Assembly: GCF_051622035.1 (NCBI RefSeq)
Contig: NC_135355.1
Location: 4,030,001-4,094,000, forward strand
Origin: Arctopsyche grandis
Taxonomy: Eukaryota; Arthropoda; Insecta; Trichoptera; Hydropsychidae
Reading direction: 5' to 3'
DNA length: 64,000 nt
Position 1 is the first letter of the stretch. Each line of letters opens with the position of its first letter. The notes under the pieces are model-generated. The model saw nothing but the letters and a program-made list of their open reading frames with translations. It was not told the DNA's origin and searched no databases. Made by a program: the position numbers and the translations under genes. Positions 2,300 through 61,110 of the stretch are shown piece by piece.

Positions 2300-2690
2300 T
2301 TTCCTTGTATGTTAATTTATGTTAAGCACCGGGAGATTACCGGGTTAGATCCCGTGATAATCTGTAATTCTGCTGGTCAGACTTGGATATTTTTGAGTCG
2401 AAGTCAATTTTTTTTTCCAATTTATTTGCCAATTTATCTGATTTCATTCTTGAAACGGTTCCTTTATCAAATTGGAAAAAACCATCTATGCCACCAATAT
2501 CTTAATTTTATTTATGTACAATATGTAAAAAATCCATAGCTGTCTCTATGGATTAATTCATTAATTAATTAATAGTTCATTTCGTGTTGGAATGCCGGAA
2601 TGTTTGTAATTGGCTAGAAACGCGCATTAGGGCTTACATTTTAGGCCTTCCTGATATATATCTATGTAAAATAAATAAATAAATATGGAG
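2300..2690 (+). mobile_element. tRNA-derived SINE-i, degenerate
   Basis: The degenerate tRNA-like head carries a box-B-like GGGTTAGATCC. The shared central domain follows (GCCAATTTATCTGATTTC, GAAACGGTTCCT), then the internal ATCCATAG/CTATGGAT pair and a 3' hairpin with a TAGGCCTTCCTG arm, ending in (AAAT)n. Confidence 0.75.
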
Positions 2691-2812: not shown

Positions 2813-2925
2813 AACCTCTTATACGTTTCACATGGTTTTCGTTAAGCGGTCATTTTTTATATCCTTTATCTCTTATCGGATCGTTTTCATACTTTGCCAT
2901 ATTGCTCGTTTTGGTCATCAATATT
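2813..2925 (-). repeat. R repeat, partial
   Basis: Minus-strand match to the R family core (GACCAAAACGAGCAATATGG, CGATCCGATAAGAG). It retains the end of the 19-codon micro-ORF (IDDQNEQYGKV then TGA) but has lost the ATG where LINE A was inserted. Confidence 0.75.
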
Positions 2926-2940
2926 TATTTATTTATTTAA

Positions 2941-3930
2941 TAGTTTTGGACCATTGTGGCATTACAGGAAGAACCTAATGCGCCACAATGGCCTACATTT
3001 GAAAAAGATATAAAAACATGATATAAAAACAAGTATACTGTAAATAAAGGAAAAAAGCAAAAGCAGAAAACATGGTAAAATAAAATAATAAAAAAAAGTA
3101 ACAAAAGGAAAATAATACCTCATTCAGAGAGAAAAAAAAAATAACAAAAGTGTAAAAATTAAAAATAAAATCCATAAATCCCATTCTTTGTTTACACTGA
3201 GCAAAATTAAAATAGTATATAAAAATGTACAAAAGAGAAAGAAAAAATAAAATAAAATAAAACAAAATATGAATAAAAAATAAAATCACAGCGAGGTCCA
3301 AATGGAAGAGAGTAGATTAAGATTTCACTCATTCATCACATTCAAATTAAGAAAGTAATGATGAGCGCAGGTTACCAGATAAATATGTTAAGATAATATC
3401 CGACAATCTACGCTCCCCAAGGTGGAAAATATCACATTCAGGGACAGCAGCAACGATTTCATTGAGAAGTGGAATAGCTCTTGGAATAGGAGCCATTCAA
3501 AAAAGAACTGTGCGAGCAGCAGGTACAACCATTAAATGATGATGTCTACCACGCACATAATTATTAGGGACATAAAGTCCCAACTGTTCCAGCAACAACG
3601 GGCATGACGTATTACCACGCAATAGCTGGAGAACGAAACGAATTAACGAGAAGTTTCTCCGAAGTTCAAGGGAATTATACCCAAGCATGCCCAAAAGGAA
3701 AGGAGTAGGATAGAGATATGGGTAGTACCCATACTCTTTCTTATAAAGAAAACGAAGAAATGCTTTTTGCACTTTTTCTATAATAAGAGAGTAGTTTGCT
3801 TCATGCGGATTCCACACAATTGCATTATACTCTAGCTTACTTCTAACAAGCGAGTTGAAAAGCAAGCGAGAAGACAAGGGGTTGGAGAATAATCTAGCAT
3901 ATCTCAAGACAAATCCAAGTCGACGAAAGT
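2941..3930 (-). pseudogene. LINE A 3' end with ORF end, 3' UTR and hairpin
   Basis: A 5'-truncated copy of LINE A. Residues FNSLVRSKLEYNAIVWNPHE, YGYYPYLYPTPFLLGMLGY and YVRGRHHH run from 3907 to 3497. After a frameshift at about 3500 the frame reads MAPIPRAIPLLNE to a stop near 3350, matching LINE B's SPIPRGLRFLNS. The 3' UTR (about 400 bp) ends in a perfect 10 bp stem, CCATTGTGGC with GCCACAATGG, at 2951-2991, then (AAAT)n. It is inserted in an R repeat, remnants of which lie at 2813-2925. Confidence 0.85.
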
Positions 3931-3954
3931 TAAGGTATAATATAAGTTAAGGTA

Positions 3955-4400
3955 TCATCCGCAATTACGATGGTGAAAAAATATCGTATTAGACACGTTT
4001 GAAAATACTCCATCGTATTACACGGTGACGTTTATCTGTCACATTCATCATTCACATCGGTAGTTTCATTACTTTTCGCCCTGCCATCTCGCTGTCAAAT
4101 TTTAATTATTTAAACGCCTATAACTTTTTCTTTTTCCACTCTATATTTTATAAAATTTGCTTTATAGGTTCTCGTTATATCTAATATATAAATATTTATA
4201 GTTTTGTGGAGGCTTGCTGAGCCAACGGTATTGGGTGTTGCCACACCAGCCTTTATGCAGGGTGGCAACACTGTTCGGTGAGTCTGACAGAATGGCGTTT
4301 AACCCATAACCTCAAATCAAAACAAACTTTCTAACCAATACAGGCTTAATATATGTACACAGATCAAACAGTGATAGTTTTATTTTTAGTTATTAGCTAT
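3955..4400 (-). repeat. R repeat, diverged copy
   Basis: It shares GTTTAAACGCCTATAA, GGTTCTCGTTAT, TCTAATATATAAATATTTAT and ATCAAACAGTGATAGTTTTA with the copies at 48, 49 and 58 kb. An insertion-like stretch with GGAGGCTTGCTGAGCC interrupts it. Confidence 0.7.
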
Positions 4401-5395: not shown

Positions 5396-5540
5396 TCTAC
5401 CTCTCTCATTGTTCGACATATTTGCATTTCGTTTTTTTTCAAGTGTTGCTGAGATTTCTCTTTCACTCTTGTGTATGTATATTTTTGTATTCGAATAAAG
5501 AAACCAAATTTAACGAGGCGTGAAAGCCAGTTAAATTTTT

Positions 5541-6368
5541 ATGACTGAACATGATAACAATTTTTTTTCTAAAGTAATATTTTCCACATGTAAAAACTAT
5601 AAAAGAATTCACGCAGCGAAGACAAAATTTATGATTACTACCAAAAATACAAAATTGGAAATGCCTCCCACTCCACTAAAAATAAATGACAAAAACATTG
5701 AACTAGTGCATCAATATAAATATTTAAGATGCTGGTTGAACGACCAATGGGACCATTCACAAGAGATTAAAATCAGAATAGAGATGGCGCGAAACGCTTT
5801 CTTCAAGATGCGTGATCTCCTCTGCAATAGAGATTTCAATCTTGACCTAAGGATGAGAATTGTACACTGCTACGTTCTATCAGTACTTTTTTATGGGGTC
5901 GAATCCTGGACCATGACTCAAGCTACAGAGAAAAAGCTGGCAGCATTTGAAATGTGGTGTTTCAGGAGAATGTTGAGGATCCCCTGGGTGGACAGAGTCC
6001 GAAATGAAGAAGTATTGAAACGAATGAAAAAAAAACGAGATTTATTAAGCGTCGTGAAGCGCAGAAAACTCGAATACCTGGGTCATGTGATGAGAAATCC
6101 GAAATATGAAATCATACAGCTCATATTGCAGGGGAAAGTTCAAGGGAAAAGAAGCGTTGGTAGAAGACGCATCTCATGGATGGGAAATCTCGGTGGATGG
6201 TACCAATGTGACTCCACAACACTTTTCAGGGCAACCATGGATAGAGAGAAGATATATGTGATGATTAGAGGTAGGATAGTCACAGTGCTATCCATTTTTC
6301 GGCAAACCTTTAACAATGCATTTACAACCTTTGAACAATACACGGCCTCCTCAGGCTCCGGTGACTAG
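5541..6368 (+). pseudogene. LINE reverse transcriptase C-terminal part, RTE/BovB-like
   Basis: A 275-codon open frame with the well-known C-terminal block of insect endonuclease-reverse transcriptases: YKYLRCWLNDQWDH, RMRIVHCYVLSVLFYGVESW, KLAAFEMWCFRRMLRIPWVD, RRKLEYLGHVMRN, GKRSVGRRRISWMGNL. The expected G of KYLG is R, and the catalytic FADD region is absent, so it is a 5'-truncated dead copy. The 3' tail is (GAA)n at about 6408-6422, as is common for RTE-type elements that end in short tandem repeats. The clade call is tentative. Confidence 0.85.
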
Positions 6369-7597: not shown

Positions 7598-7990
7598 AAG
7601 GGTTTGGTGCATCCGCTCTAAAATCGCCAGACAAACGAACGGCAGCTTTAAACGTAATTCTCGTTTTCTCGAATGATAGATTGCACATCGAGATGACGAG
7701 TAACCTTTCGATGTGCACAGATGCAATTATTAAAATGGTAATTATTAAAATTGAGTTGGATCTTTCTGGCGAGTTTAATAAGGCAAGATTCGGAACTTAT
7801 CGAATATTGCCTTATTAAACTCGCCTGAAAGATCCAACTCAATTTTAATAATTGCATCTGTGCACATCGAAAGGTTACCCGTCATCTGATGTGCAATCTA
7901 TCATTCGAGAAGACGAGAATTGCATTTAAAGCAGCTGTCCGTTAATCTGTCGTTCAATTTGTCTGGCGATTTTAGAGCGAATGCACCGCA
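7598..7990. mobile_element. M1, near-perfect 390 bp palindrome
   Basis: About 180 bp on the left (GGTGCATCCGCTCTAAAATC at its outer edge) is repeated inverted on the right (ending GATTTTAGAGCGAATGCACC). The arms meet around 7795 with almost no loop, GGCAA..TTGCC closing the stem. A small duplicated AATTATTAAAA in the left arm is the main asymmetry. It is non-coding; a foldback-type MITE is the likely identity. Confidence 0.8.
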
Positions 7991-8895: not shown

Positions 8896-9329
8896 ATAGA
8901 TATATACCAGGAAGGCTTGACAGGAAGACCCCAATGCATATTCATTGACAATTAATTACAAACAATGCAGCATTTTATTATTACATAAATCACTGTATTT
9001 CCAGAAGCTGAAGAACACGAAATAACAATTTATTAATTAATTAATTACAGAATAAATCCATTGAGACGTCTATGGATTTTAGATTTGTACATAATTTTTA
9101 CAAACTATACACACAATAAATACAGAAGATTTGCGACAACAGGAAAGATGATTTTTTGTCAATTTTGAGGAACCTTTTCAATAATTATCAGATAAAATTG
9201 GCAAACTCTGATAAGAAACGATCGATTTGGAGTCACAAATACCCCCAAATCTAACCAGCAGTATAGTGGATCGAATCCACTGATCACTTGGTGCTAAAAA
9301 TACACGCTACCAATGAGCCATACTGCTGG
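8896..9329 (-). mobile_element. tRNA-derived SINE-i
   Basis: Minus-strand order: head with CAGTATGGCTC-like start and box B GATTCGATCC (9268-9280), central domain (GATCGTTTCTTATCAGAG, CAATTTTATCTGAT), internal ATCCATAGACGT, and the 3' hairpin arm CCAGGAAGGC at 8907-8916. The other arm has mutated. Element E follows directly on its head side. Confidence 0.85.
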
Positions 9330-11744: not shown

Positions 11745-12170
11745 ACATAGATATATACCAAGAAGGCTTGACAGGAAGTCCCTAATGCGCCTTCCTGGAC
11801 AATTAATTACAAACAATGCAGCATTTTATTATTACATAAATCACTGTATTTCCAGAAGCTGAAGAACACGAAATAACAATTAATTATAGAATTAATCCAT
11901 TGAAACATCTATGGATGTAGATTTTGTACATAATTTTTACAAATTATACACACAATAAATACAGAAGATTTGCGACAGTAGGAAAGATGATTTTTTACCA
12001 ATTTTGAGGAACCGTTTCAATAATGATCAGATAAAATTGGCAAACTCTGATAAGAAACGATCGATTTGGAGTTACAAATACCCCCAAATCTAACCAGTAG
12101 TATGGCGGATCGAACCCACTGATCACTTGGTGCTAAGCATACACGCTACCATTAAGCCATACTGTTGTAT
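11745..12170 (-). mobile_element. tRNA-derived SINE-i, well preserved
   Basis: Box B GTGGGTTCGATCC lies near 12110-12122 and box A near 12150. The central domain is intact and the 3' hairpin CCAAGAAGGC (11758-11767), 21 nt loop, GCCTTCCTGG (11789-11798) is nearly perfect. It ends in TATATATCTATGTAAAAAT-like AT-rich sequence. Confidence 0.88.
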
Positions 12171-23189: not shown

Positions 23190-24548
23190 ATTCGGATGGT
23201 ACCAACCCATGACTTTATCTATGTATTTGAGGAATATAAGAAAGTCACAATACAAAATTTTATATTAAACCGTACAGACACATTCACACATACCGGCAGC
23301 ATTATTTTTTTATTTATTTATTTTATTTTACATATATATTTTCACATACATACATATATACAAATATACCAGGAAGGCTTAACATGTAAACCCCAAATGC
23401 GCCTGCCTGGTCCACATAATTATTACATAGATACATGTAAATCTTAATATCTGACATCTATGGTCAGTATACACATATTACAAACATCGTATTAATATGA
23501 TAAATAACGTAGAATAACTTTCATGTAACAATACGAATTTTATATTCGATAAACAACCACAGAGACATCTATGGTGAGCAATATGGCGAAACCTAAGATA
23601 TAACAATAAATAAAGGTTCGCAACAGAAAATTGGGAAGGAAACGCCAATTTTACAGGAAACGTTTCAATGAAAATCAGAAAAATTGGCAAATTCTGATAA
23701 GAAACGATCGACCTAGACAAATCAAGGTCTGGCCAACAACGAGACTTAGCGGGGAATCGAACTCGTAACATCAAGTACGAAATAATTCAACATTCACCAC
23801 TAGACCACGCTGCTGGTTGTGAAATACTAATAGCTATGACAGCATATTCGATACAAATTGAGCGCAAATGTATGGAAACTTGCACAAGACAAAAATTCTA
23901 CTTCCGGTTGTCGGATTTTGTTCAATTTTTTTTCATTACTTAAAATCACTATCAGTCTTATAAACAATAAATATCAAAAAGATTAATATAATTTAAAAAG
24001 TCAAAATAAAATAATGAAATATTGTTTTAAAAAAAATTACGAATTCTGACCAAAGCCTTATCAGCTCTAATTTAGTACATAGATAATACAAATATACATT
24101 TTCAGCTTGATACGTTCAGGGGTGTGAGCAGGATTAAATCCCACTTCTGGTATATTAAATTTAGTGATTTTTTTTTTATTTTCATCGCATTGATACAAGA
24201 ATTATACTTGAATTTGTTCGTGAAGCGGAATTTTAGCGGTTTGGGAGACAATTGAATTCAAAAACTTAAAAAAAAAGAGGACACCTATAAGGTGAGGTAC
24301 CATTTCCGGTTAACTTAAAAATTTACGCCGTGTCCATAAGAAATTCAGTAACTAAGTTTCAGTTCGATCGGACTAACGGTGTGCAAAATATCTCCAAAAT
24401 ACGCAGACACACACACACATTGTTTTCTAGATCATGAAAACGTGATCTGTGATCGATTCTGAGTTCGAATCAGTCAAAATCTCGAGATCGAAGTTTCGCA
24501 TGATCACAAAACTTCATCTATTATTACTTCGTACATAGATTGATAAAG
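23190..24548 (+). repeat. G repeat, long copy, split by a SINE
   Basis: It matches 40735-41255: ATGACTTTATCTATGTATTT, then (after the SINE) GACAAAAATTCTACTTCCGG, GGATTTTGTTCAA, ATTGTTTTAA, CAGCTTGATACGTTCA, and the end CTTCATCTATTATTAC..TACATAGAT. The SINE 23300-23820 sits between GGCAGCATT and GACAGCATA. Class unknown; no ORF. Confidence 0.65.
23300..23820 (-). mobile_element. tRNA-derived SINE-i
   Basis: Minus strand: box B near 23755-23765 (AGTTCGATTCCCCGC), central domain GATCGTTTCTTATCAGAATT, ATAGATGTCTCTGTGG, and 3' hairpin region with CCAGGCAGGCGCATTTGGGG. The AT-rich tail is at 23300-23370. Confidence 0.82.
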
Positions 24549-27522: not shown

Positions 27523-28742
27523 TTACAACCAACTGGGACCCAAACAACTCTCCATAACTTTGACGGCATCATTTCTACCCATATTTTTCAAAATGGCTGC
27601 CAAATCGGCGACTGCACTAGTATTCTTATGGCGACACTCCCACAGATCCAAAATGGATTCTGTAGGAGAACTTTTAGTAGCGAAAAAGTTTATATACCTG
27701 TCGACGTTCAATTTTTGAGCCAACAGTCGCCAATCGTTGCCTCTAGAGTTTGGAGGGTCTAAACAAGCACACAGTTGCTTTTTCACAGACTTGGACAGTT
27801 TGAAAGGAGTTACACTCTCAAGAATGCAAGAATTTATCCCCTTATCGTTGACGCTCATACTTTTTTGCTTAGATTCGTTGCAATCGTCAACGCTAGATAG
27901 TGCCCTGCCCGGAAGGGTTTTGCTCTCGAGGGAATTTTCAGTGATTATCATATTCAAATCGTTATTGAAATAAGTCCTTCTTTTGCCGCGTAATGGCGAA
28001 TCACAATTGGAATACTCATCGCTACATTTAATATTGAAAGTTTGTTTGTATGAAGGGTTCGACTTTTGACAAACAATCACTTTAAACTCTAATATGTTTA
28101 TAGAGTCGGTCTGTTCCAAAGTGAAACTGCAATGCAGAGAGTTCGAGGAAGAGTTCCAAACGTGGCCAAAAGGTATCTCTTGATAGTTAGAACTGGATTT
28201 GACCCTCCAACCCAATCCCACATCCTCCAAATTGAGGCACAGATTAGAACCACCGTCTTGGAAGAGCAGAGTCTTTGGCGTGTCCATCAAAGTCCCACCT
28301 AGCCTATTCTCCTGCTCTGAGCAATAGTGCAAAGCGCAAGGGGTGTCTTCGAATAAATACACCCTTATGTTTATGTCAGCTGCCGATGAGGAATTGCCAT
28401 GTGGACCAAACACGGCAAGTTTCAGTTTCTTCACGGACTTACCGTTTAGACTTTCGCCGATTAGGACGAAGGTTGACAGAACTTCCGTCACCAAGAAGAC
28501 CTTGTCGGCGTCGAGTTGAGTGAATATCGGAGTGTTGATCGTCTCCTGTCCCAAGCTGACGACCTTCTTCCATACAGATCTAGTGTCTTTATGGTGATGA
28601 TTCTCCTTGTCGTAAACGCACAGGGATAAATTCCAGAAACCGTGCTTGAGACTCGCACAGTGCGGGATCTGGACGATGACCGATTTGTTCAGAGGTGTCG
28701 ACGATGGGCCGATTCTGATGACGGGACTCACCTGGGTTGCAC
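27523..28742 (-). CDS. unc-5: UNC5 exon i: rest of ZU5, UPA and death domain, stop
   Basis: The terminal 1220 bp coding exon. It continues ZU5 with TQVSPVIRIGP and IVQIPHC, runs through the UPA region (NIRVYLFEDTPCALHY; TLLFQDGGSNLCLNL) and ends in a death domain with LCACLDPP, DWRLLAQKLNVDRY, ILDLWECRH and ILKNMGRNDAVKVME. The last residues are PSWL before TAA at 27525-27523. The acceptor is CACCAG at 28743; the G left by exon h completes a glycine codon. Single-exon coding of these three domains is plausible for an insect gene. Confidence 0.95.
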
Positions 28743-31700
28743 CTGGTGTTGAACAATATTCAATTACAAATGTGTACCTTTCGAATTTTAGACAGAGGTT
28801 TTATAGTGAAACTAACCTTCGCCGAGTTTGGGTCTGTACTTCTCGTCCTTCATGACAGTTATATACATGTTCTCTTGCTTGTTCTTAGACACGGCACCCT
28901 CGGGTATTGAAAGGGCCACCCCTATCTGATCCAAACTCAACCAGGCTCCAGAGGGTCCCACACTTTGGGAACGGGTCACAGGACAAACGCCGGAAACGTC
29001 ACCAAACATTCCATGGAACGCCAATAGGGGTAAAACCACCTTGTCACCGTTGGGATCATGCGTCGATTCAGCTGCACACAAAAGGATAAAATTACAATAA
29101 AACCACAAAAAGAACATACATACAAGTTCGATCAATCAAATGGAATACTTACAACTGGTACAACAACTAGCCGTCGAATGCTCAGATTCACTATAAGGTT
29201 TCCTATCGTAATTGTCGCTTTCGTTTGATGAATTCGGCAATTGCTGATCTATCGGAGTGGCATAACTAAAATAAAACAAATACAATGTATTCCAAACTAT
29301 ATCACAAATGAATATGTGATGTATTAAAAACAAAACAAGTACCTATTGCTCAAATGCGGAACATCGTAATGATGTTCGCTGACACTCCTGCAAATCGGAG
29401 GATTGACCTGTTTGCCCAAAAATGGCGGGTATTCGTAAGACGGTGGTACTTCGGCTTGTGGCATCAGATCTGGTTGTAATTTTTTGTCGAGGTCTTGAAA
29501 GAATTGAGGTCTCATATCTGTTCAAAAGATGCGCCATTTGAATTGTGCCGTACTTTTAAAATATGATATAAAGTGAATGAAGAGTGTTTACCAGTTCGTC
29601 TGTTGTTGTATAGAGAACGATCTCGTTCTTTTCTTCTGAACAAACGAAAAACTAAGAATGCAACTATTGCAAATACGAAAAATGCAACCACCAATCCTAT
29701 GTACAGAGGAGCGTTATTGGAAACTGCAGCGACTGTTGGTGAAAAAAAAGCACAATATGAAACAGTTTTCAATATTAACATTTTCCAACGAAGTCTCTAA
29801 GACTGCATATCAGTTCCACGAATGGAAAATAAATCGTAATAACTGACTTCAAGTACCAATACCGATTTTAATTGCCTATTAAATAATATATTAAAGTATA
29901 TAGCATAAGTAATTTAATTAATTCAGTTGCATATAAAAATCCGTTGTCTTCAGCATATTTTCAAACAATGCTAGATCTTCCATCTATTTACATTTACTAA
30001 CCAATTTTTTTTATATACATTTGTAGAATATGCCAGCAGTATGGTTAATGTTTAGCACCGAGAGATTACTGGGTTCGATCCCGTGCTAATCTTTAATACT
30101 GCTGATATTTGTGACTCTAGGTCGATCGTTTCTTATCAGAGTTTGCCAATTTATCTGATTTCATTGTTGAAACGGTTCCCCCATCAAATTGGCAAAAATT
30201 ATCATACCCGCTGTCACAAATATCTGAATTTGATTTATGTACAATATGTAAAAAAATATATACAAGTTTAAATCTATAGGTGTTTCAATAGATTAATAAA
30301 TTAATTAATTGTTCATTTCAAAATACAATGATTTTTGTAGTAAAAATGCTTCAATGTTTGTAATTAATTGTCTAGGAAGGTGCATTCTACCTAACAGGCC
30401 TTCATTGTAATAATATATATGTATGTATATAAAATATGTATTATACATTGTAAGGTAGATAAATATATGACATTAAAAATAAAATAATAATATTTATAGA
30501 GAAAATTTTTGTAATGAATATTTAAATTATACTAAAAATTCACGATTCATTTCAATATTTTTCGCATAGATCGTATTAGTTGTGTTTTATCGTCGAAATT
30601 CCTTGAATATTTCACAAGTACGACCATTAAACTGCACCGAACGAGTTTCAAAATTAAATTTAAAATCACTGAACCGTGGCAAATAAATTGACCGAATTAG
30701 AAACCAAACCCAACTCCTCTGCGCATATAACATACATAGTACATATGTACATACACACGGAAAGGCTTCGATGCAATTACACACAGGTATATACAAGCGA
30801 TTCGGACAAGGTGGCAAGGGTGATCCCTTCGGAAAGTCCATCATCCCCTCGTGAAATTTCAGACGTGGAATGTGGAATTTTATCCACTGCATCCACTCTC
30901 AAGATCGAGCACACCGAATTCCTGGGATGAGGAATTTCACCTGGTACACACCTGCTCCGGCTTCGTCGGGAACTTAATATTTTCTCGTTTATTGAAAAAA
31001 AACGGTCCGGAGGATTGTTTTCCCGATTTTGGGGGTTGGGTCCACGTACTCTTGGGGCTTACGAACCACGGTGGGGTAATGGGATGGGGGTGTTGGTCCA
31101 CTGGGCTGTTTAATATTCACCGCAGCATTGAGCGCTGCAGGAGACACCCGACACATTACACCGTGGCCTGGACTCCGGACTGGGGATGTTATTTTGAATA
31201 ATTAATGAAGAGGACCGCAGGATAAATGGTGGTAGCTCTCGGACACACCCTTCTGGAGTATGTCGGGGAAAAACAATCACAACAATACGCATTCGGCCAC
31301 GTGTCAGTCATTTTCGGAGTGGAGTGTACCGGACGGTTCACTATTAATCAAATTTGTACCCATCTGATTTCAACTCGTTGTATATATTCATATACAATAC
31401 ACAAATCTAATATATAATTTGAAAGAGACTTTGTATACATATGTGTATTATTGGTTCGTAAATCCATGACGTCATCGAACAAATGATTCGATTCAAAGGA
31501 TTCGAAGTCCCCGGGGGCAAAAGCACCGATGGCGAAGCCCTAGGGCTCCGCCCCCTAGGGGCGCATATGCCGGTGGCGGAGCCCTAGGGGGCGCAGCCGC
31601 GGGGGCGCAGACGCCGGATTATGATATACATATATTTTTTTATAAGAGACTTACTATATACATATGTTTGTTTGTTCGTGACAGTCAATTGAATAAAAAA

Positions 31701-34700
31701 AACAAATGAGTATTCAAATAAATGTATATATAATAAAAATGTTTACTATTAGATAAGTCATGTTTAAGTGGTTTATATTATAAACACTGAGCGAAGCCGG
31801 GTAATACAGCTAGTACACTATAAGCAGTTGTGACAATTGAATATTACCGGAAAAACAGACGGTTTGTGTATATACATATATGTATATGTTAACGGCCGAA
31901 GTGTATTTTCAGTTTTAATATTTTATTTTATTTATTTTATTGTTACAAATCAATATACACTCGCCATTACAGATTTGCTCCAATGCGACGGGTGTACGTT
32001 AATGAAAATACAGAATACATATACAATCAGAAATCAGAAATACAGTAATACATACATATACAATCAGAATATATAGCATATAACAATTAATCAGAAATAA
32101 TAATCATAGAGACATCTATGGATTATTTTTAGATTTTTTTTTGTATACAATTTTTATACATATAATAAATACGAAATTATAGAGATATCTATAGATTTCA
32201 GATTACTGTGTATAATTATTACAAATTACTGTGTATAATTATTACAAATTATACACAGGCAGATTTTGTGACAACAGGATTAGATCTAATACCAATTTTC
32301 AGGTACCGTTTCAGCAATGATCAGATAAAATTGGCAAACTCTGATAGAGAAACGATCGATTTGGAGTCACAAAACCCCCAAATCTAACCAGCAGTGGCGA
32401 GGACTCGAACCTTTGACCTCAGTGGTGCTAAATATATACGCTACCACTAAGCCAAACTGCTGGCTTATATATTCCAACTGGCGTTTTAGCTCAATCATAT
32501 TCGAATACAACTCAACTAGTTAATTATATATCTACAAGCGCAGATAAACTATCAACAATGTGCGCCAGTTGTAATATAACAGTTGAATTTTAACAATTAT
32601 TATATTTCGGTACCACCAGTAGTCTCTATTTTGTACTACCGGAAAAAAATTTGATCAGAAACCAGTAAAACTGGCTTCGGTAGTACCGGTATTGGGATCC
32701 CTAAGACATATGTACATTGTGGAACGCAGCGCGTGTTTTTTTTAGGTAGTTTTGCGCATGCATAAAAAATCATATGCCATCGCGATCCTTTCGTGATATT
32801 TTAATCTTATATTGACATAAGTTTGCCAGTGATTGATAACGGCGATTTCTATATTTGAAGAAATGTAGAAGAAACTTTTTGAAAAAAAGCCCTGTAATTT
32901 TTCACCACAGGAGGCCAAGATCGTGCCCGTGCTGTTTGATTTAGTGTATTTTCACCTTAAAAGATTTAATATTATTAAACGCACTCGTTTCTATGCTTGT
33001 CAATGTTTGGTAAAATCTATGTTGTTATAATATTAAGTCAACGATATTAATAAATATAATAAAATTATCTTCTATATGTATTATATTAATATCGGTTTAA
33101 ATAAAATAAAATAAATTGACTTCTACGATTTTCTTAGCAATAATTTTCTTACTGGTAATGATTTCATATCATATTACATACAGAAAGATGGATAATGACT
33201 AGTCTATCCACATTCGAAGGTATACTGGACAAATAATTGTCAATTTAAAATTTAAATTTGACGTATGCACATACATATGTATGTACGTCTTATATTGTAA
33301 TTAATATTTCGAAACACAAGTATTAATTAACAGTAATAGGCCCGATGAAATATCATCTGACGGATTTATCTTTATATTATAAATACCGAGCGAAGCCGGG
33401 TAAAACCACTAGTTCCAAATATTAACGCATGGAAAAAAGTATTATGTTTAGATCCAGATCCACCCCCGATCGTACCTTTCCATATCTTGTTGGTAACTTT
33501 TTATTGAACTAGATCGATTCAACTGTTGATCTTGGGGTTGCATTCCAAAGTGACCTAAATTTCTCTGTTCATATCCACTCTGTGTGTTCCTCTGCCTCAC
33601 GAATGCTTGGGTTTGTCTTTCGTAATTCTCGACACTAACATAATCCCGCTGTTTTGAGATTGCTGTACAATGCTCTAGTTAGGAGTATCTTGGAATACGC
33701 CTCTATGATCTGTAATCCTTACACTAAGTCTCTATCTGTGAAGCTCGAACTTGTCCAAAGACGATTTCTCAGACTGCTTTATAAGGAGCAATATGGGATT
33801 TACCCAAACTTATTTCCTTCAAAATTTGTCATGGGTATGGTCGGCTATACTTCTCTTGACCACAGGAGGAGTGTTGCCCTCATCAAGTTCTTGTTTTCCA
33901 TATTTAGAGGCTGTATCTCCTGTCCGTCTATGCTGGCTGAGTTGGGCCTTCATGCTCCAGAGAGTGTGATATGGACCCACCATCGTCCCCTTTTTCACAC
34001 TCCTTTGGCTAGAACTGTGGCATTTAGTTATTCTCCCATTCCTCGCGGCCTCCGTTTCTTAAATTCACTGGATGGTGCCACTGGCATTTGTCACGTCTCT
34101 CTTCATTCTCTGCACCACTTCCTAAGTTATGGAGGTCGCGACCATTTAGAAAGGTTGAGTTAGTGTTTTTGATTATGATTTTATTATGATATCATGTTTT
34201 ATTTAGTTATCCTTTCCTTATTTAATTTGTATATATAATTTGTTTATTTAACTTGTATTTTTTCCTTTTGTACTTATTAATTTTTTTAGCACACTCGTCG
34301 CTTTGGAGCAATCTGTTAGACGAGTGTGCTTGATTAATTGATTTTGTAAAATAAAAAATAAAAATAAAATAAAATGTGCCTATGTACATAGTTACAAATA
34401 AATGTGTCAGATATAATCATATCCCGATATTTTCACTGACCGCACCGCACCTCTTATGACTTTCATTAAACATTCATATCATATTTCACGAAAATCCAAT
34501 CGATAAGAGTCGACAGACACGATGAGCTAATAAGTGGTCTTTACAAGTTTTGAATTAACACAACGATAGCATCATCGCACACGTCAACGGACCCCGTACG
34601 AAAGGAAACGGCATTGTATCATCTATTATTTGTGTTTTCAATAAGAAAACAATGGAAGACGACGGGCCATGGCACGCGATGTTGTAATTACCCGTGGCAC

Positions 34701-41800: not shown

Positions 41801-44800
41801 AAAATATATATGCTGCAAATCAAAATAATATACATATATCGCCATTATAAAGGTTTGGGCATTAAGTCGAACAATATATAAATGTACAAATATAACCCGT
41901 ATTATATTATATTTATAAAGAATATACCTACAAAATACGTACATACTTAAGTATTTATGTACACAGATAAATAGGTATTTGATGTATGTATATATGTCTA
42001 GATTGACCTACATATCGGTCCTTTTCGACCCGAGATATAATACATATAACTATGTAAGGTACAATAGATAAGATACAGAGAGATGTTCAAATACTGTGTT
42101 GGATTTAAGTTCAACACTTTGAGGACGAGCCTAACATAGTTTCCTAACAATTACGCAAATAAAGCAATACGGGTTCCACATTGCGTGCGGGTCGTTTATC
42201 AAAACTTACCCAAATACATAGGTATATATTGTAGTATTCGAGGAATTGCCGAGTGAAATAATATTACACAACGTTGAATGTTTGAAAAGGCTCGACTCAT
42301 CGAAAGCTTTCGCTGCGACTGATGTGTGCACAATGGAAGTGTATAAAAGGGTACACAGAGACAAAGCAATTTTTTCCGAACGTTGCGTCGTCGTCAAGGG
42401 GTTGAATGAAGTTATATGAGGCGAATGTACTATGCTGGAAAATCTGCTAGTTTTTCTTTTCTCTTTTCCTTATATCAAAGTGAACGATGTCTATTGTGTA
42501 TATACATACATATACGTACATAGTATTGAGTTGTATTAAAGCTACATACATATGTCATTTCTTCGCAATGAAATTGCGACAAAGTTTTCATATTGTAATT
42601 ATTTTTTTATAAACATATTTTTCTAATGTGTATCATTCTTGTAATTTTCCATAGATATATACCAGGAAGGCTTGACAGGAAGACCCCAATGCGCCTTCCT
42701 GGACAATTAATGACAAACAATGCAGCATTTTATTATTACATAAATCACTGTATTTCCAGAAGTTGAAGAACACGAAATAACAATTAATTAATTAATTGAA
42801 GAATCAATCCTTTGAGACATCTGTGGATTTAGATTTTGTACACAATTTTTACAAATTATGCACACAATAAATACAGAAGATTTGTGACTATAGGAAAGAT
42901 AATTTTTTCCAATTTTGAGGAACTGTTTCAACAATGATCAGATAAAATTGGCAAACCATAATAACAAACGATCCATTTGGAGTCACAAATACCCCAAATC
43001 TAACCAGCAGTATGGCAGATCGAACCCCAATGATCACTTGGTGCTAAACATACACGCTACCATTAAGCCATACTGTTGGCTTATGTGTATGAATATGTTA
43101 CAGTCGAAGTTTTCACTCCTGTTCATGTATGAACTTACTAGAAATTAGTTGGTAACAGTCAAAAGCTATCTTTAGATAGACTCACCAGGTGTTGCATGAA
43201 ACTATTAGCTGTCAAAACCATTGAGATGTCAAAATGCCAAGTATTTAAAAGGGAAATCCTATCCCCATTTCTTTTAAATTGCGATCCAAGCTTACATATG
43301 TATGTACATGCATAGATAGTGGGAACAACGATTGAGAATACTTTAGTTTATGTTCGTTTGACATTTTTTCTTTTATGAATATTATAAGGGCACAGACACA
43401 CAGAGTAATATGTGGTACATGCTTTTTAAAACGCTAGTACACCTGATCTATTACAGAAACATACCCTGTAAGGTGAAAACACACTGAAGGGAACGGCACG
43501 GCACGTCTTCGTGCCTTCCAGCCAAGGAAGGGCGTTCCAAGTTCATTGTTAATTTAAATACTGATATTAAATCTCTAGTATTTATACATATCATCAATAG
43601 CGATGAACCAGTTTACCTTTCAGATCGAATACGAGCCCATAATCTCCGTCCGTTAATAGATCGTAACCGTTTCGACAGTGGGATAGTTGTTTAGTGGCCA
43701 TTAGGGAAAGCGGTTGCATTTCTGATGGCCCGAACATTAGTCATTTGATTAATTTAGTTATGGCCCCGGACATTCAATTAAACAGCCCTGGCCGGCTGCA
43801 GATGCACCGGCCGATAGCGTAAATTATTCGCTGCCAAAATACGAGCCGCCCCTGCACATATTTATGGGTCGATAACGTTTCGCACTAATCCCGTCCACTG
43901 TAATTTAATTAGATTGATCCGATTAGATATCGTATTTTACACTGAAAGCTCAAATTAGCAATTTTTTCTTTAAATTTAATATTAATCTAAGTGAAACTTT
44001 GTGAAAGCGCGATGCACCCTTACAAAATGCAGGGTACAAACCACGCTCATTTTCTAACAACAGCTATAACAAGTTTGGATGTGTCAAAATCTGTCCGAAC
44101 GTGTCAAGACAATAACAGTCCTGTTCAGTTCTTCCTCGTATTATTAAGGCTTTAAAGGCAGAGACACACAGAGAGGTGAATAGCATGAGTTTTTTATACA
44201 TTCCATTTTCAATATATGTACATATTTAGATAAAATATTCCTTTTCAATATCATAAACATATATCTACGTATATAATATCGCTATTATGTGCCTATCTGA
44301 GATAACGCTCGCCGTACTATAATAGTCGTAACAATTCGACATACATACATATTTATTTATTTTATTTTTATTTTTATTGTTACAAATCAATATACACTCG
44401 TCATTACAGATTTGCTCACATGCGACGGGTGTACGTTAACGAAATACAGAATACATAAACAATCAGAAATCAGAAATACAGTAATACATATACAATCAGA
44501 ATATATAGCATATAACAATTAATCAGTAATAATAATCATAGAGACATCTATGGATTATTTTTAGATTTTTTTTGTGTACAATTTTTATACATATAATAAA
44601 TACGAAATTATAGAGATGTCTATAGAGATATCTATAGATTTCAGATTACTGTGTATAATTATTACAAATTATACACAGGCAGATTTTGTGACAACAGGAT
44701 TAGATCAAATACCAATTTTCAGGAACCGTTTCAGCAATGATCAGATAAAATTGGCAAACTATGATAGAGAAACGATCGATTTGGAGTCACAAAACCCCAA

Positions 44801-47800: not shown

Positions 47801-50800
47801 CATATGTAGCTTGTATTGGTTAGAAAGTTTGTTATGAAGGAATAAACAATGAAATTTGAGGTTATGAGTTGCTGCCGGCAATATGTATAATCACTTATGC
47901 CGGGAACCTTACAGTTTAGAATAGTTTATTAATACTAAGATTGTTTTAAGAATAGTTTATCAATGTATGATTGTCCATAAATGAGTTTATGTATTTACAG
48001 AAATGAACTTTTCAATCATCAGATAAATTAAATCAGCTGATATAACTTATTATTGAATACTTATCTCGCAGATAAAACCCAGTGAAGAGATATACTTTTA
48101 GCCGTGAAATGTCAAATCTGACATATTTGGCCAAAAATCAATAGATATCGTGTATTACCCTACAAGAAGCTACACGCCAAATTTGAAATCTATATATACA
48201 TATGAGAGTTAAAACTATAAATATTTATATATAAGAGATAACGAGAACCAATAGAGCAAATTTCATAAAATATAGAGTGAATTATAAGCGTTTAAACAAT
48301 TAAAATCTTATATCGCCATATCAAGGCGAACAGGTTGGAAGATACGGAACGAACGCTTATTAAACGTCAAGAAATTTACTTTCCACGTGTTTAAAACGCG
48401 TTGTATACGATATTTTATCTCCAACGTAATGGCAGACGATACATTAACGTGTATTGATGACCAAAATGAGCAATATGGCAATGTATGAAAACGATCGGAT
48501 AAGAGATAAAAATGGCTACTGACACGAAAGCCATGTGAAACTTAAAGGAGGTATGTAAAAAAGTGTAATGATTCAAATCAATTGATGAATTTTTTGAAAG
48601 ATCGCTCTTACATTCTTACACAATATGTATTATTACTATTTTACATAAGTGATCAAAAATTTGAAGCACAGTCTTTGAATGCTCGTCAAACAGTGTAAGC
48701 TAGTCATGAGCGATTTTTATAAACTTAATACGATCTTAATTATTTTAAAAATATAAAAAAAATCTATTCTATTGATAATATTGTAATAAAAATTGAAATC
48801 CAATATATTACCAATAGGTAACCTGTTGTTGGTAATTTAATATTATATTATCAGTTACCGCACGCGTTGCATGATACTTGACCGTTAAAGTAAAAATGTT
48901 AATGGTATTGTATTCATTAATTACATCGTCAGCATACGACGAAAATCCATTAACTACATAAAACATTGTACATGGTAAATTATCATAATATTTTGTTATA
49001 ATAAATAAATACAAAACTTTTTCTTCATATGCATGTATTATTTATGCAAGTAATATATTACATTATTTATTAATTATCTTCTTTTCCTATATATGTATGT
49101 ATGATGACGATTTATTGTCCTACTATGCAAATCTACAGTTATTAATTTGAATCCACCAAATAAGGTGTACTATCACACTTCGACAGCAAATTGCAAAATA
49201 TTTTGAAATATTTCCGTTTTTACATACCTCTTATACAGTTCACATGGTTTTCGAGTTAGTGGTAATTTTTTATATCTCTTATCTCTTATCCGATCGTTTT
49301 CATACTTTGCCATTTTGCTTATTTTGGTCATCAATATACGTCAATGTATCGTCTGCCATTACGTTGGAGATAAAATATCGTATATAATGCGTTTTAAAAA
49401 CGGGGCACGTAGACCTTCTTGACGTTTAACAAGCGTTCGTCCCGTGTCTTCCAACTTTTTCGCCTTGATATGGCCATATCAGATTTTAATTGTTTAAACG
49501 CCTATAATTCACTCTATATTTCATAAAATTTACTCTATAGGTTCTCGTTATCTCTAATATATAAATATTTATAGTTTTAACTCTCATATGTATATATAAA
49601 TTTCAAATTTGGCGTGTAGCTTCTTGTAAGGTAATACACAATATATTTTGATTTTTGGCCAAATATGTCAGATCTGACATTTCACTGCTAAAAGTACTTC
49701 TCTTCAATGAGCGTTATCTGCGAGATAAGTATTGAATAAGAAGTTATGTTTTATCTAATTGTTAATATGATTTACAATAAGTTTTCCACCAACTAAAAAT
49801 CAAAGCCACATTTTTTATAGTATGGTTCCAGCATTGATGGGTATACATAACTCATAACCTCAAATTTCATTGTTTATTCCTCCAAAACAAACTTTCTAAC
49901 CAATACAAGCTTAATATACGTACACAGATCAAACAGTGATAGTTTTTTTTTAGTTATCAGCTGATTTAATTTATTTTTATATATTTTTCCAACTTTCATT
50001 CGTCCGAACAATGCCTGGAAATTCGGCTAATATAAAATAAACCACGGTTTTCTATTCTTCTTATAATTAAATGATATATTTATTAGTTCCTAAAATAGAC
50101 TTTTTAACAAAGCTTTTGATAGGATTTGAATTGAAAAAAGTGGATGAATATAAATCATGAAAAATTTCACATGTTAGAACTGTTGAATTAATTTCCCAAA
50201 ATTTGATAGCTAATTTATTTTCATTTTTCAACGTGAACTTTAAAACATATAATACCAGCAACAGTGGTAGCCTGTAATGCTTTCAATTGAGGGATCATGA
50301 GTTCCCTGGCTCAGTGTTGCTGATCAGACCTTAGATATGTGTGATTCCAGGCCGATCGTTTCCAAAGAGAGTTTGGCAATTTATCTAATTTCGTTGTTGA
50401 AACGATTCTACCAAATCGGCAACCTATCCTATTTCTCAAAAATTCGAGTTATTAAAAATTTTCTGTACATCGATTTTTTCTCTATAATACTGTATAAATA
50501 TAATTGTTCATCGATATTTGTAATTGGCCAGGAAGGTGTATTTTTTCACCTGTTAGGCCTTCTTGCTATGTATATATTCTTTATTTTATTTTATTTCAAT
50601 CGAACTTCTACGTATGTATACTCAACTTTACAGATCGCTCCAAGGCAACGAGTGTACTAATACAGATACAATACAATAATACAATTAATACAAGCAATTT
50701 TATACAATGAAAATTCTTACAAACATCATCCACAGAGACATCTATGGAAGAAAAATTTGCCAAATTTTTATTATAGAAATTGGTGAACCTCAAGGCGCAG

Positions 50801-54889: not shown

Positions 54890-56214
54890 TAGGGTTGTCA
54901 GGCATCCCGATTAATCGGGATTGTCACCAGTTTTAAGTCTCGTGTCACGGTGTCCCGAACAAACTTCTCGGGGCGCCCAAATTTCCCAGTTTACTACTTT
55001 TTAATTCCTACAGAAGTTTTTAATTAAAAATATGTAACATAAACTATGAACAAAAAATTGATGACAGATGAAAGAAATAGACTTTCTGTGGATACTGTTG
55101 AAAGTGTTCTAAAATGCATTAAAAACTATGATTTATGTTGATGCCAAATAGAAAGTCTGAAATGGCAGTCAGTAATAAAATATTTAGGAGTAACGTTTGA
55201 TAAAAGAATGAGATGGGCACCTCACATTGAGGCAGCGAAATGCAAGGCGATGCGGGGTATATCTTCAATATATCCAATATTTAATCGCCATAGTTCTTTA
55301 TCAACGCTAAATAAAATAAAATTATATCGCGCGCTCATATTACCATTATTAACCTATGCTTCACCTGTATGGAATAACGCCTCGAATACTAACCTTTCCA
55401 AGCTCCAAGTAATACAAAATAAATCCCTAAAAATAATTTATAATACACCCATATATACTAACCTGAAAAAACTGCATGCCATATATAATATTCCGTTTGT
55501 TACAGACATTACTAACAAACTAACCAGTAGATTCTATGACAGAATCACTAATAACCATACTAACACACTTGTGAAGAGTTTCGGTGATTACAACAAAATG
55601 TCTATACCCTTCAGGTATAAACACAGATTACCTAAACACAATCTGCTTTAAGTCATCGACTTTAGAGAATCTTTAATTAATATTATGTATTAGATGTATT
55701 ATGAACATTTATAAGGATTGTAAATAGGTTTTTGAGCTCTTTTTCCTATTATGCTTTAGATTAACATTAGAATAATACAATACTGTGATTACTAAACAAA
55801 TTAAATTAAATTGTAAAATAGAAAATTATCAGTAGATCAGTAGCTATTAAAATAGATATAAGATGTATTGTGAACATAATTTCGTAATAATAAAAAGCAT
55901 TTAAAAATCAAAATCAAATTGATGCCAAATGTATGATTATCTAATTACAAACAAAATACTCTTGCAAAATGCTAAATCTAATGACAAGAATAAAAAATAT
56001 TATTTTAATTTAGATTTTTATGGCTACTTTTGTTCCTATTCGTTAATTTACATATATTATATTGTGAATTGTTTTTTTTATGACTGCCTTTGTTCCTATT
56101 TAAGTAATTAATATAGTTAAATTATTTAATATAAATTAAAAATTATTTGATTTGATATTTTTTTTGGGGGGGGGGGATGTCCCGGTTTGACTTGCATGAA
56201 ATCTGACAACCCTA
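54890..56214 (+). mobile_element. hAT-like transposon remnant split by a LINE
   Basis: Inverted ends TAGGGTTGTCA (54890-54900) and TGACAACCCTA (56204-56214), with ATGT beside both. Inside, a short frame reads MTDERNRLSVDTVESVLK before the LINE insertion, and YDYLITNKILLQNAKSND after it (about 55937 on), resembling the end of a hAT-type transposase with its ERNRLSV motif. The rest of the transposase is deleted. Subterminal CCCGATTAATCGGG is palindromic. Confidence 0.65.
55150..55918 (+). pseudogene. LINE C, 5'-truncated insertion with target duplication
   Basis: Flanked by TTGATGCCAAAT at 55138-55149 and 55919-55930. The 147-codon frame 55208-55651 reads KLYRALILPLLTYASPVWNN, LQVIQNKSLKIIYNTPIY, KLHAIYNIPFVTDITNK and ends KHNLL: the C-terminus of a Jockey/I-type reverse transcriptase. 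The 3' end is AATAATAAAAAGCATTTAAA with a short A-rich tail. Open over its whole retained coding part, hence fairly young. Confidence 0.9.
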
Positions 56215-60185: not shown

Positions 60186-61110
60186 TGTAATATATAATTT
60201 GGAAAGAGACTTTGTATAATGTATGTATGTATGTATTTTATTTTTTTATTGTTCCAAATCAATATAGACTCGTCATTACAGATTTGCTCAGATGCGACGG
60301 GTGTGTACGTTAACGAAATACAGAATACATAAACAATCAGAAATCAGAAATACAGTAATACATATACAATCAGAATATATAGCATATAACGATTAATCAG
60401 AAATAATAATCATAGATTTTTTTGTGTACAATTTTTATACATATAATAAATACGAAATTATAGAGATGTCTATAGATTTCAGATTACTGTGTATAATTAT
60501 TACAAATTATACACAGGCAGATTTTGTGACAACAGGAATAGATCAGGAACCGTTTCAGCAATAATCAGATAAAATTGGCAAACTCTGATAGAGAAACGAT
60601 CGATTTGGAGTCACAAAACCCCCAAATCTAACCAGCAGATGGCAAGGACTCGATCCTTTGACCTCAGTGGTGCTAAATATATACGCTACCACTAAGCCAA
60701 ACTGCTGGCTATGTATCCTTCGTTTGTAGAAATCCGTGACGTCATCAAACAAATAATTAGCTATTATTATATTCAAAGGATTCGAAGTTCCCGGGGGCGT
60801 AGGCGCCGAGGGCGAGGCCCTATAGGGCGCAGACACCGAGGACGGAACACTAGAGGGCGAAGCCTTAGGGCTCCACCCCCCAGGGGGCGCAGACTTCGAG
60901 GAAAGAAGCCCTAGGGGGCGCAGACGCTGGGGGCGTACATATAATTATTTATAAGAGACTTACTATATATGTTTTTTTGTTCGTAACAGTCAATTTAATA
61001 AAAAAACAAATGAGTATTCAAATAAATTTAATAAAATGTTTACTATTAGATTAGTCATGTTTAAACGGATTATATTACAAATACCGAGCGAAGCCGGGTA
61101 ATACAGCTAT
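60186..61110 (+). mobile_element. Helitron with mutated ends and nested SINE-ii
   Basis: It starts TGTAATATATAATTTGGAAA (C of TC lost) and ends CCGAGCGAAGCCGGG, TAATACAG, CTAT instead of CTAG. The SINE at 60235-60715 is inside its 5' part. The GC-rich array is at 60785-60935. An old copy of the 31.4 kb family. Confidence 0.8.
60235..60715 (-). mobile_element. tRNA-derived SINE-ii nested in Helitron
   Basis: 3' hairpin ACACCCGTC/GACGAGTCT (60266-60304), shared central domain, box B AGGATCGAGTCC near 60648-60660, and TGTAT-like short repeats at both edges of the insertion. Confidence 0.87.

Follow-up and report, generated by a model that had tools for sequence, protein, structure and literature searches.

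The window analysed here, a stretch of 64,000 nucleotides from Arctopsyche grandis (contig NC_135355.1, positions 4,030,001 to 4,094,000), lies in the gene of an UNC5 netrin receptor, a coding exon of which carries the ZU5, UPA and death domains (Table 1). The closest named UNC5 proteins in the search are those of a moth and a butterfly (55%); other named insects stay at or below 50%, and other sequences reach up to 96%. By reading only, and with no Pfam match, the ORF at 51776-52117 (-) resembles the UNC5 thrombospondin repeat; any LINE or SINE between it and the exon would be intronic. Two LINEs of the window, LINE A and LINE B, retain the C-terminal region of a reverse transcriptase (RT), and the corresponding ORFs (3500-3946 in LINE A and 33639-34160 in LINE B) gave no Pfam match. 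The named homologues of LINE A are insect endonuclease/RT proteins, with a best identity of 34% for any match among those listed. Between the endonuclease and the RT, LINE A has a Pro-x-Trp motif and a basic run. The column of tryptophan W339 holds a residue in 116 of 120 LINE A homologues, this being W in 99% of those 116, and conservation is 0.90 at P337, 0.99 at W339, 0.91 for K/R at 351 and 0.86 for K/R at 357 (111-116 residues). The endonuclease-linker piece of LINE A found no match in the LINE B loci fetched, from which the LINE B linker was not recovered. Two further LINE fragments, at 5535-6368 (+) and 55142-55651 (+), have no tblastn match to LINE A or B and belong to other groups. 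The SINEs of the window comprise SINE-i, whose body with a tRNA-like head starts at about 43080 (-), and SINE-ii, whose body starts at about 32465 (-). SINE-i (42640-43080, -), SINE-ii (31930-32465, -) and other copies have in common the tRNA-like head and a core, GATCGTTTCTTATCAGAGTTTGCCAATTTTATCTGAT...AAAATTGG, which in some copies contains an internal inverted repeat, GCCAATTTT/AAAATTGGC.

Table 1. Positions of the 3' hairpins and of the coding regions in the window
Feature	Position	Strand	Basis
LINE A 3' hairpin: lower stem GGCCATTGTGGC/GCCACAATGGTC, tip GCATTAGGTTCTTCCTGTAAT	2949-2993	-	
LINE A end beyond the hairpin, with (AAAT)n repeat	2922-2948	-	
LINE A RT, C-terminal region upstream of the hairpin	3374-3946	-	tblastn similarity to LINE A RT
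SINE-i 3' hairpin, stem CCAGGAAGGC/GCCTTCCTGG	42660-42704	-	
SINE-i 3' hairpin, second copy	11756-11800	-	
SINE-i 3' end: 5' arm mutated at several places, tip and 3' arm intact	8905-8949	-	
LINE B 3' hairpin: stem AGCACACTCGTC/GACGAGTGTGCT, tip GCTTTGGAGCAATCTGTTA	34287-34331	+	
LINE B RT, C-terminal region	33483-34160	+	tblastn
SINE-ii 3' hairpin, LINE B-type tail, C.A mismatch in stem	31955-31997	-	
SINE-ii 3' hairpin, second copy	44392-44434	-	
SINE-ii 3' hairpin, third copy, absent from the earlier note; two stem mismatches	60266-60304	-	
Older SINE, CCAGGAAGGC-type hairpin	23367-23412	-	
Older SINE, CCAGGAAGGC-type hairpin, tip shortened	50526-50568	+	
Older SINE, CCAGGAAGGC-type hairpin, tip shortened	30370-30409	+	
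Older decayed SINE, CCAGGAAGGC-type hairpin	2612-2656	+	
Coding exon with ZU5, UPA and death domains	27523-28800	-	Pfam

All six hairpins quoted in an earlier note on this DNA were found in the window at the coordinates and on the strands given there. They share one fold: the lower stem, which is specific to each family, has 10-13 bp, and beyond it come an internal loop, a short upper stem that includes wobble pairs, and the apical loop. The hairpin adjoins a short A-rich terminal repeat, just upstream of it and near the 3' end of the element, where the recognition hairpin of a stringent LINE should lie. RNA folding against 200 shuffles gave z = -6.35 for LINE A, -5.84 for LINE B and -3.86 and -4.01 for two SINE-i copies; the two SINE-ii copies gave z = -2.20 and -2.43, and 5 and 3 of the 200 shuffles, respectively, folded equally well. 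The 21-nt stretch (19 nt in LINE B) that had been described as a loop is indeed a conserved tip; however, it is not an open loop, as folding predicts within it the internal loop, the upper stem and the apical loop. Five of the six folded copies have an upper stem of 4 bp, and the SINE-ii copy at 44394 has a weaker one of 2 bp. The predicted upper stem is UAGG/CCUG in LINE A, UGGG/CCUG in SINE-i at 42662 and UGGA/UCUG in both LINE B and the SINE-ii copy at 31957. The apical loop of LINE A is UUCUU, which contains UCU, and that of LINE B and of the C-type copies is GCAA or near it. In the SINE-i copy at 11758-11798 the tip deviates slightly and the stem contains one G.U. In SINE-i (42662-42702, -) the tip repeats the CUUCCUG of its own 3' arm, and therefore the 5' arm could pair with the tip over 7 bp; this alternative fold was rejected as far weaker (-8.7 versus -23.1 kcal/mol), but one decayed copy, L065, is predicted to adopt it.

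A covariance model built from LINE A and two SINE-i copies (R1) matched four older SINE copies in the window (2612, 23367, 30370 and 50526) and the broken SINE-i copy, with more in the fetched flanks. A second model (R2), built on 24 matches, re-finds the R1 copies, necessarily so for those from which it was built. In the window, R2 did not report LINE B and gave SINE-ii only 13.4 bits (E 1.8); LINE B and SINE-ii were placed in the hairpin set by their spacing, not by R2. No Rfam family matched the window at the gathering threshold. In 6 Markov shuffles of one strand there was no stem that was 10 bp or longer, had 5 or more G/C in its 5' arm and enclosed a loop of 12-28 nt. Alone this is a weak control, because the real window also has several such stems unrelated to the tail motif, for example at 4234, 7767 and 31537. 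The long perfect inverted repeats at 31537-31594 (15 bp) and 7767-7825 (19 bp) are perhaps the ends of small DNA transposons.

The hairpin is abundant in the host genome. Exact matches to the tip pattern GCNTTRGGN{3,6}CCTGTNA, which leaves out the LINE B and SINE-ii tips, number 16,196 (8,064 + 8,132) in 475.7 Mb and 189 contigs, as against 37 for the reversed control of the pattern in the same genome. For the 3' ends of LINE A and LINE B, 1,467 and 1,662 first-look candidates were obtained, and the best 40 scored of each were 98-100% and 93-100% identical to the window copies, respectively. Over about 80 nt at sampled fetched places, the median pairwise identity was 0.90 both among 15 copies with the LINE A tip and among 13 with the SINE-i tip. 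Virus contigs contained no match to the 41-nt pattern of the LINE A/SINE-i type.

Because the search pattern fixes only the tip, the flanks provide a free test of the lower stem. The earlier note had allowed that other copies might prove unpaired, but at the first 40 consecutive places chosen by their tip a mean of 9.4 of the 10 lower-stem positions were paired (G.U counted), compared with 4.5, and never more than 7, in control flanks shifted 15 nt outward (60 places). All 10 positions were paired at 28 of the 40 places, 9 at four, 8 at five, 7 at two and 5 at one, so that 37 of the 40 pair at 8 or more. Swapping arms between stem classes gave a mean of 6.0 and a maximum of 10 (60 rows), a high control value because the stem classes have outer and inner letters in common.

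Covariation was examined in two alignments. In the first (80 places and 13 further hairpins, that is, 93 rows, 63 of them distinct), the stem pairs ranked 1, 5, 7, 11, 23, 30, 80, 108, 110, 117, 191 and 651 among 666 column pairs ordered by corrected mutual information. Near the top there were also several column pairs that are unpaired in the structure, as family structure predicts. Each of the middle stem pairs occurred as at least three standard pair types; pair 6-35, for example, was GC in 28, TA in 12, CG in 6, AT in 4 and GT in 4 of the 63 distinct sequences. In the second alignment (102 rows, 73 distinct; 500 shuffles), three of five pair-counting measures of compensatory stem changes lay above the shuffles, none of which was as high: paired cells (93.4% versus 83.6%), cells changed on both sides (84 versus 24.1) and the covariation score (0.329 versus 0.167); related copies inflate the counts. 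The other two measures were not separated from the shuffles, namely pairs with a change on both sides (7 versus 6.5) and further pair types (23 versus 20.5, with 40 of 500 shuffles as high). Slid structures paired at only 29-50%. As there are only about 7-8 stem classes, independent covariation events are few. Within classes, single-side changes prevail: class S (48 rows) has 36 and 33 single-side and 5 double changes, 3 of which keep a standard pair, and class A (30 rows, loosely assigned) has 14 and 12 single-side and 7 double changes, 5 of which keep one. This excess is expected for dead copies and in itself lends no support.

Five LINE families (A-E) of one RT group carry the hairpin, each with a different stem, at 0.13-0.55 kb downstream of the RT matches. 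Those families that were compared are about 39-56% identical in their RT parts, and RT precedes the hairpin in A (and its variant A3 in L137), B, C (L044 and L133), D (L023) and E (L130); LINE A2 was seen only as short ends (L136), and no second LINE E copy with RT was present among the fetched loci, which leaves L130 as the single instance of RT with the E stem. The hairpins align between families, whereas the 22-nt flanks outside them are not clearly similar, with about 9-18 of 22-30 columns matching by raw count. The earlier note had the stems differing completely while each pairs with itself; the self-pairing stood, but the contrast was too strong for LINE A and SINE-i, which have 6 of 10 pairs in common and differ only in the middle 4 (CCA-UUGU-GGC versus CCA-GGAA-GGC). 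The stems of LINE A and LINE E likewise have the outer CCA/TGG and inner GGC/GCC in common and differ in the middle 4 bp. Nor is the stem of SINE-ii the same as that of LINE B, as had been stated: in all three SINE-ii copies of the window (31957, 44394 and 60266) the T-A pair of LINE B is replaced by a C.A mismatch, the two copies that were folded have in addition one pair changed on both sides, from C-G to T-A, and the copy at 60266 has one further stem mismatch. Other stems with a similar tip are CCACAGTGAC (L023), CCACAGTGTC (L026), TTGGTGTGAC (L013), CTAGTGTGAC (L095) and CCATTGTAGC (L022), and stems drift within groups, as in CCAGAAAGGC/GCCTTTCTGG of L021 and CCATTGTAGC/GCTACAACGG of L022. 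The C1-type ends L044 and L055/L135 have two adjacent unpaired lower-stem positions in common, a fixed stem mismatch as in SINE-ii, whereas the C2-type ends L095 and L013, unlike the C1 type, are paired throughout, with wobbles; L019 and L091 look related but more decayed. Perfect pairing is thus not required, since the SINE-ii and LINE C1 stems contain mismatches.

SINE-i and SINE-ii differ mainly in their 3' parts, that is, they are one SINE body with the tails of two LINEs. By sequence comparison, the SINE-ii tail is that of LINE B (34 of 45 hairpin positions identical). For SINE-i, the partnership with LINE A that the earlier note had put forward was rejected once LINE E was found with SINE-i's stem (L129-L131, with RT only in L130): the hairpins of LINE E and SINE-i are identical at 38/46 and 37/45 positions, compared with 31/45 for LINE A and SINE-i, and all 10 stem pairs of L131 are exactly those of SINE-i, L129 and L130 each being one wobble off. 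The SINE core precedes 13 of the 16 CCAGGAAGGC-type hairpins that were examined and, by reading, 1 more (window 50526); the remaining ones are L037, which is ambiguous, and L042, which has too little upstream sequence. When extended, the latter is L131, which groups with L129 and L130 and has in common with them a different 3' end. As RT is present in L130, LINE E is likely to be the source of the SINE-i tail. The tip stretch UCUUCCUGU of SINE-i is common to LINE A, and LINE E has YUUACCUGU instead; this likeness to LINE A may be chance, because the SINEs carry many tips, some of them intermediate (for example, AUUUUCCUGU and GUAUUCCUGU). L136, once considered a SINE with a LINE A2 tail, was rejected as such; it reads as a short A2 fragment, truncated at its 5' end, that inserted into a SINE core and is bordered by AAAATT at either end, a clean record of 3'-tail-led insertion.

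A structured element in a 3'-terminal position, which covaries between families, is shared by LINEs and SINEs and occurs with several stems beside related RTs, is most likely the 3'-tail recognition structure of one stringent non-LTR group (LINEs A-E), captured by tRNA-headed SINEs. The recognition structure proposed in the earlier note therefore stands as a conserved 3' RNA structure, with pairing kept across stems and a conserved tip, but not as a LINE A-SINE-i partnership. We infer that the hairpin would be bound by protein and needed for retrotransposition, with its stem, its tip or both as the putative source of specificity. The ORF2 protein of the LINE would grip the RNA hairpin via the conserved internal loop and upper stem (GCNUU-R-GG ... 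CCUGU-N-A), and the lower stem would serve as a helix of about 10 bp, the letters of which may drift if both arms change together. Docking of ORF2 could then set the downstream A-rich repeat at the nicked target for target-primed reverse transcription, and SINEs would move with a borrowed LINE tail, SINE-ii with that of LINE B, SINE-i and its relatives with that of LINE E.

An alternative division of labour is that the lower stem is a private address, each LINE protein reading its own stem letters, mainly the middle 4 bp, with the tip as a general contact. Each LINE family does have its own stem, the stem of L131 is that of SINE-i, SINE-ii is one mismatch and one compensated pair away from LINE B, and only the middle 4 bp separate the stem of LINE A from that of LINE E. 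However, tail sharing by descent explains the stem match with no address, stems drift within groups (L021 and L022), and in zebrafish L2, as far as the available part of the report goes, stems are exchangeable and loops are not (PMC4176376), which favours a stem that is free to change; we regard a private address as rather unlikely. Somewhat less probable still is a two-part address, in which a group-wide tip serves any ORF2 and a private stem is added to it, with SINE-i as a natural chimera of a LINE E stem and the LINE A tip stretch; if true, SINE-i would be a SINE in the course of switching partners, its tip altered by point changes and its old stem retained.

The hairpin might also act ahead of reverse transcription or independently of it, as an element at the 3' end of the transcript that serves stability, export, 3' processing or protection of SINE RNA, and not in ORF2 docking. 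As this reading would have it, LINEs and tRNA-headed SINEs alike carry it near their 3' end as an RNA structure in transcript sense, but the stems of the SINEs follow those of particular LINEs (E with SINE-i, B with SINE-ii), and the window's two LINE fragments from other groups have no such hairpin within 1.5 kb downstream. LINE and SINE transcripts are expected from different polymerases. As SINE stems track LINE stems despite this, a LINE-encoded reader fits better than a general host factor, and the transcript element is improbable. A palindrome that acts at the DNA level in integration, or is a by-product of integration, and has no RNA role, would suit the long perfect arms and a lower stem that pairs nearly equally in transcript sense and antisense (729/800 versus 720/800 cells). 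Against it, the upper stem needs U.G and G.U pairs, which form in one sense only (320/320 cells paired in transcript sense versus 187/320 in antisense at 80 places, most of this being fixed by the search pattern), and the element ends in the repeat beyond the palindrome, not in the palindrome itself; we consider this very improbable. Least credible of all is mere inheritance, in which the SINE tails were copied once from LINEs and their likeness reflects youth, with no selection on pairing. Most copies do belong to few families, many are old and decayed, and single-side changes prevail within classes; yet the hairpin is kept across LINEs of such divergent RT and with flanks of no clear similarity, and between families the stems have changed on both sides.

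That the hairpin is carried in one genome by five LINE families, two SINE lineages and thousands of copies makes it a natural mutagenesis that can show which letters matter. In the R2, SART1 and I elements, the 3' RNA is needed for target-primed reverse transcription; their 3' UTR structures belong to other clades and differ from those of LINEs A-E. The general principle is already known: tails shared between LINEs and SINEs, stem-loops and, in monocot L1/SINE tails, compensated stems alongside conserved loop letters have been described, as seen in the available part of PMC3747384. What appears to be new, in that we did not meet it in the literature searched by title and abstract opening, is one tip motif in an insect LINE group with private stems in five families; within that same search no report of such a tip hairpin in this group was found, and the words "hairpin" and "stem-loop" are absent from the main text of a caddisfly genome paper (PMC8881205).

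The monocot L1-clade LINE/SINE hairpin of Ohshima (PMC3747384), as described in the available part of the paper, resembles the one reported here in its variable, compensated stem, its conserved loop letters and its sharing between LINEs and SINEs. In contrast to the caddisfly hairpin, it is not described there with an internal loop and upper stem, and it belongs to a plant L1 clade with a conserved UCU loop and a CGAG 3' flank, which were not found as such here; in the hairpin sequences inspected, CGAG was absent directly after the stem. The tails of zebrafish ZfL2-1 and ZfL2-2 and of eel UnaL2, according to the portion of PMC4176376 available to us, likewise end in a 3'-terminal stem-loop with an upper and a lower stem before short repeats, although LINEs A-E differ in LINE sequence from these L2-clade elements. 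As in eel UnaL2 and its SINE partner, the tail is common to LINE and SINE. The same source reports that exchanging or deleting the whole stem-loop, or the loop, of zebrafish L2 abolished or sharply cut movement, whereas exchange of the stem did not abolish it and a disrupted stem did; in UnaL2, changed stem sequences lowered movement. The zebrafish L2 proteins bind the tail hairpin via the region between endonuclease and RT (PMC4176376). How a LINE protein chooses its own RNA, and how a SINE steals that choice, has been tested in few elements so far, to judge from the portions of the literature available. In zebrafish, two LINEs have different loops that are read strictly by their own proteins (PMC4176376, available part), whereas here one tip occurs in five families with private stems. 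SINE-i joins the stem of LINE E to a tip like that of LINE A, and with it stem can be tested directly against tip as the partner signal.
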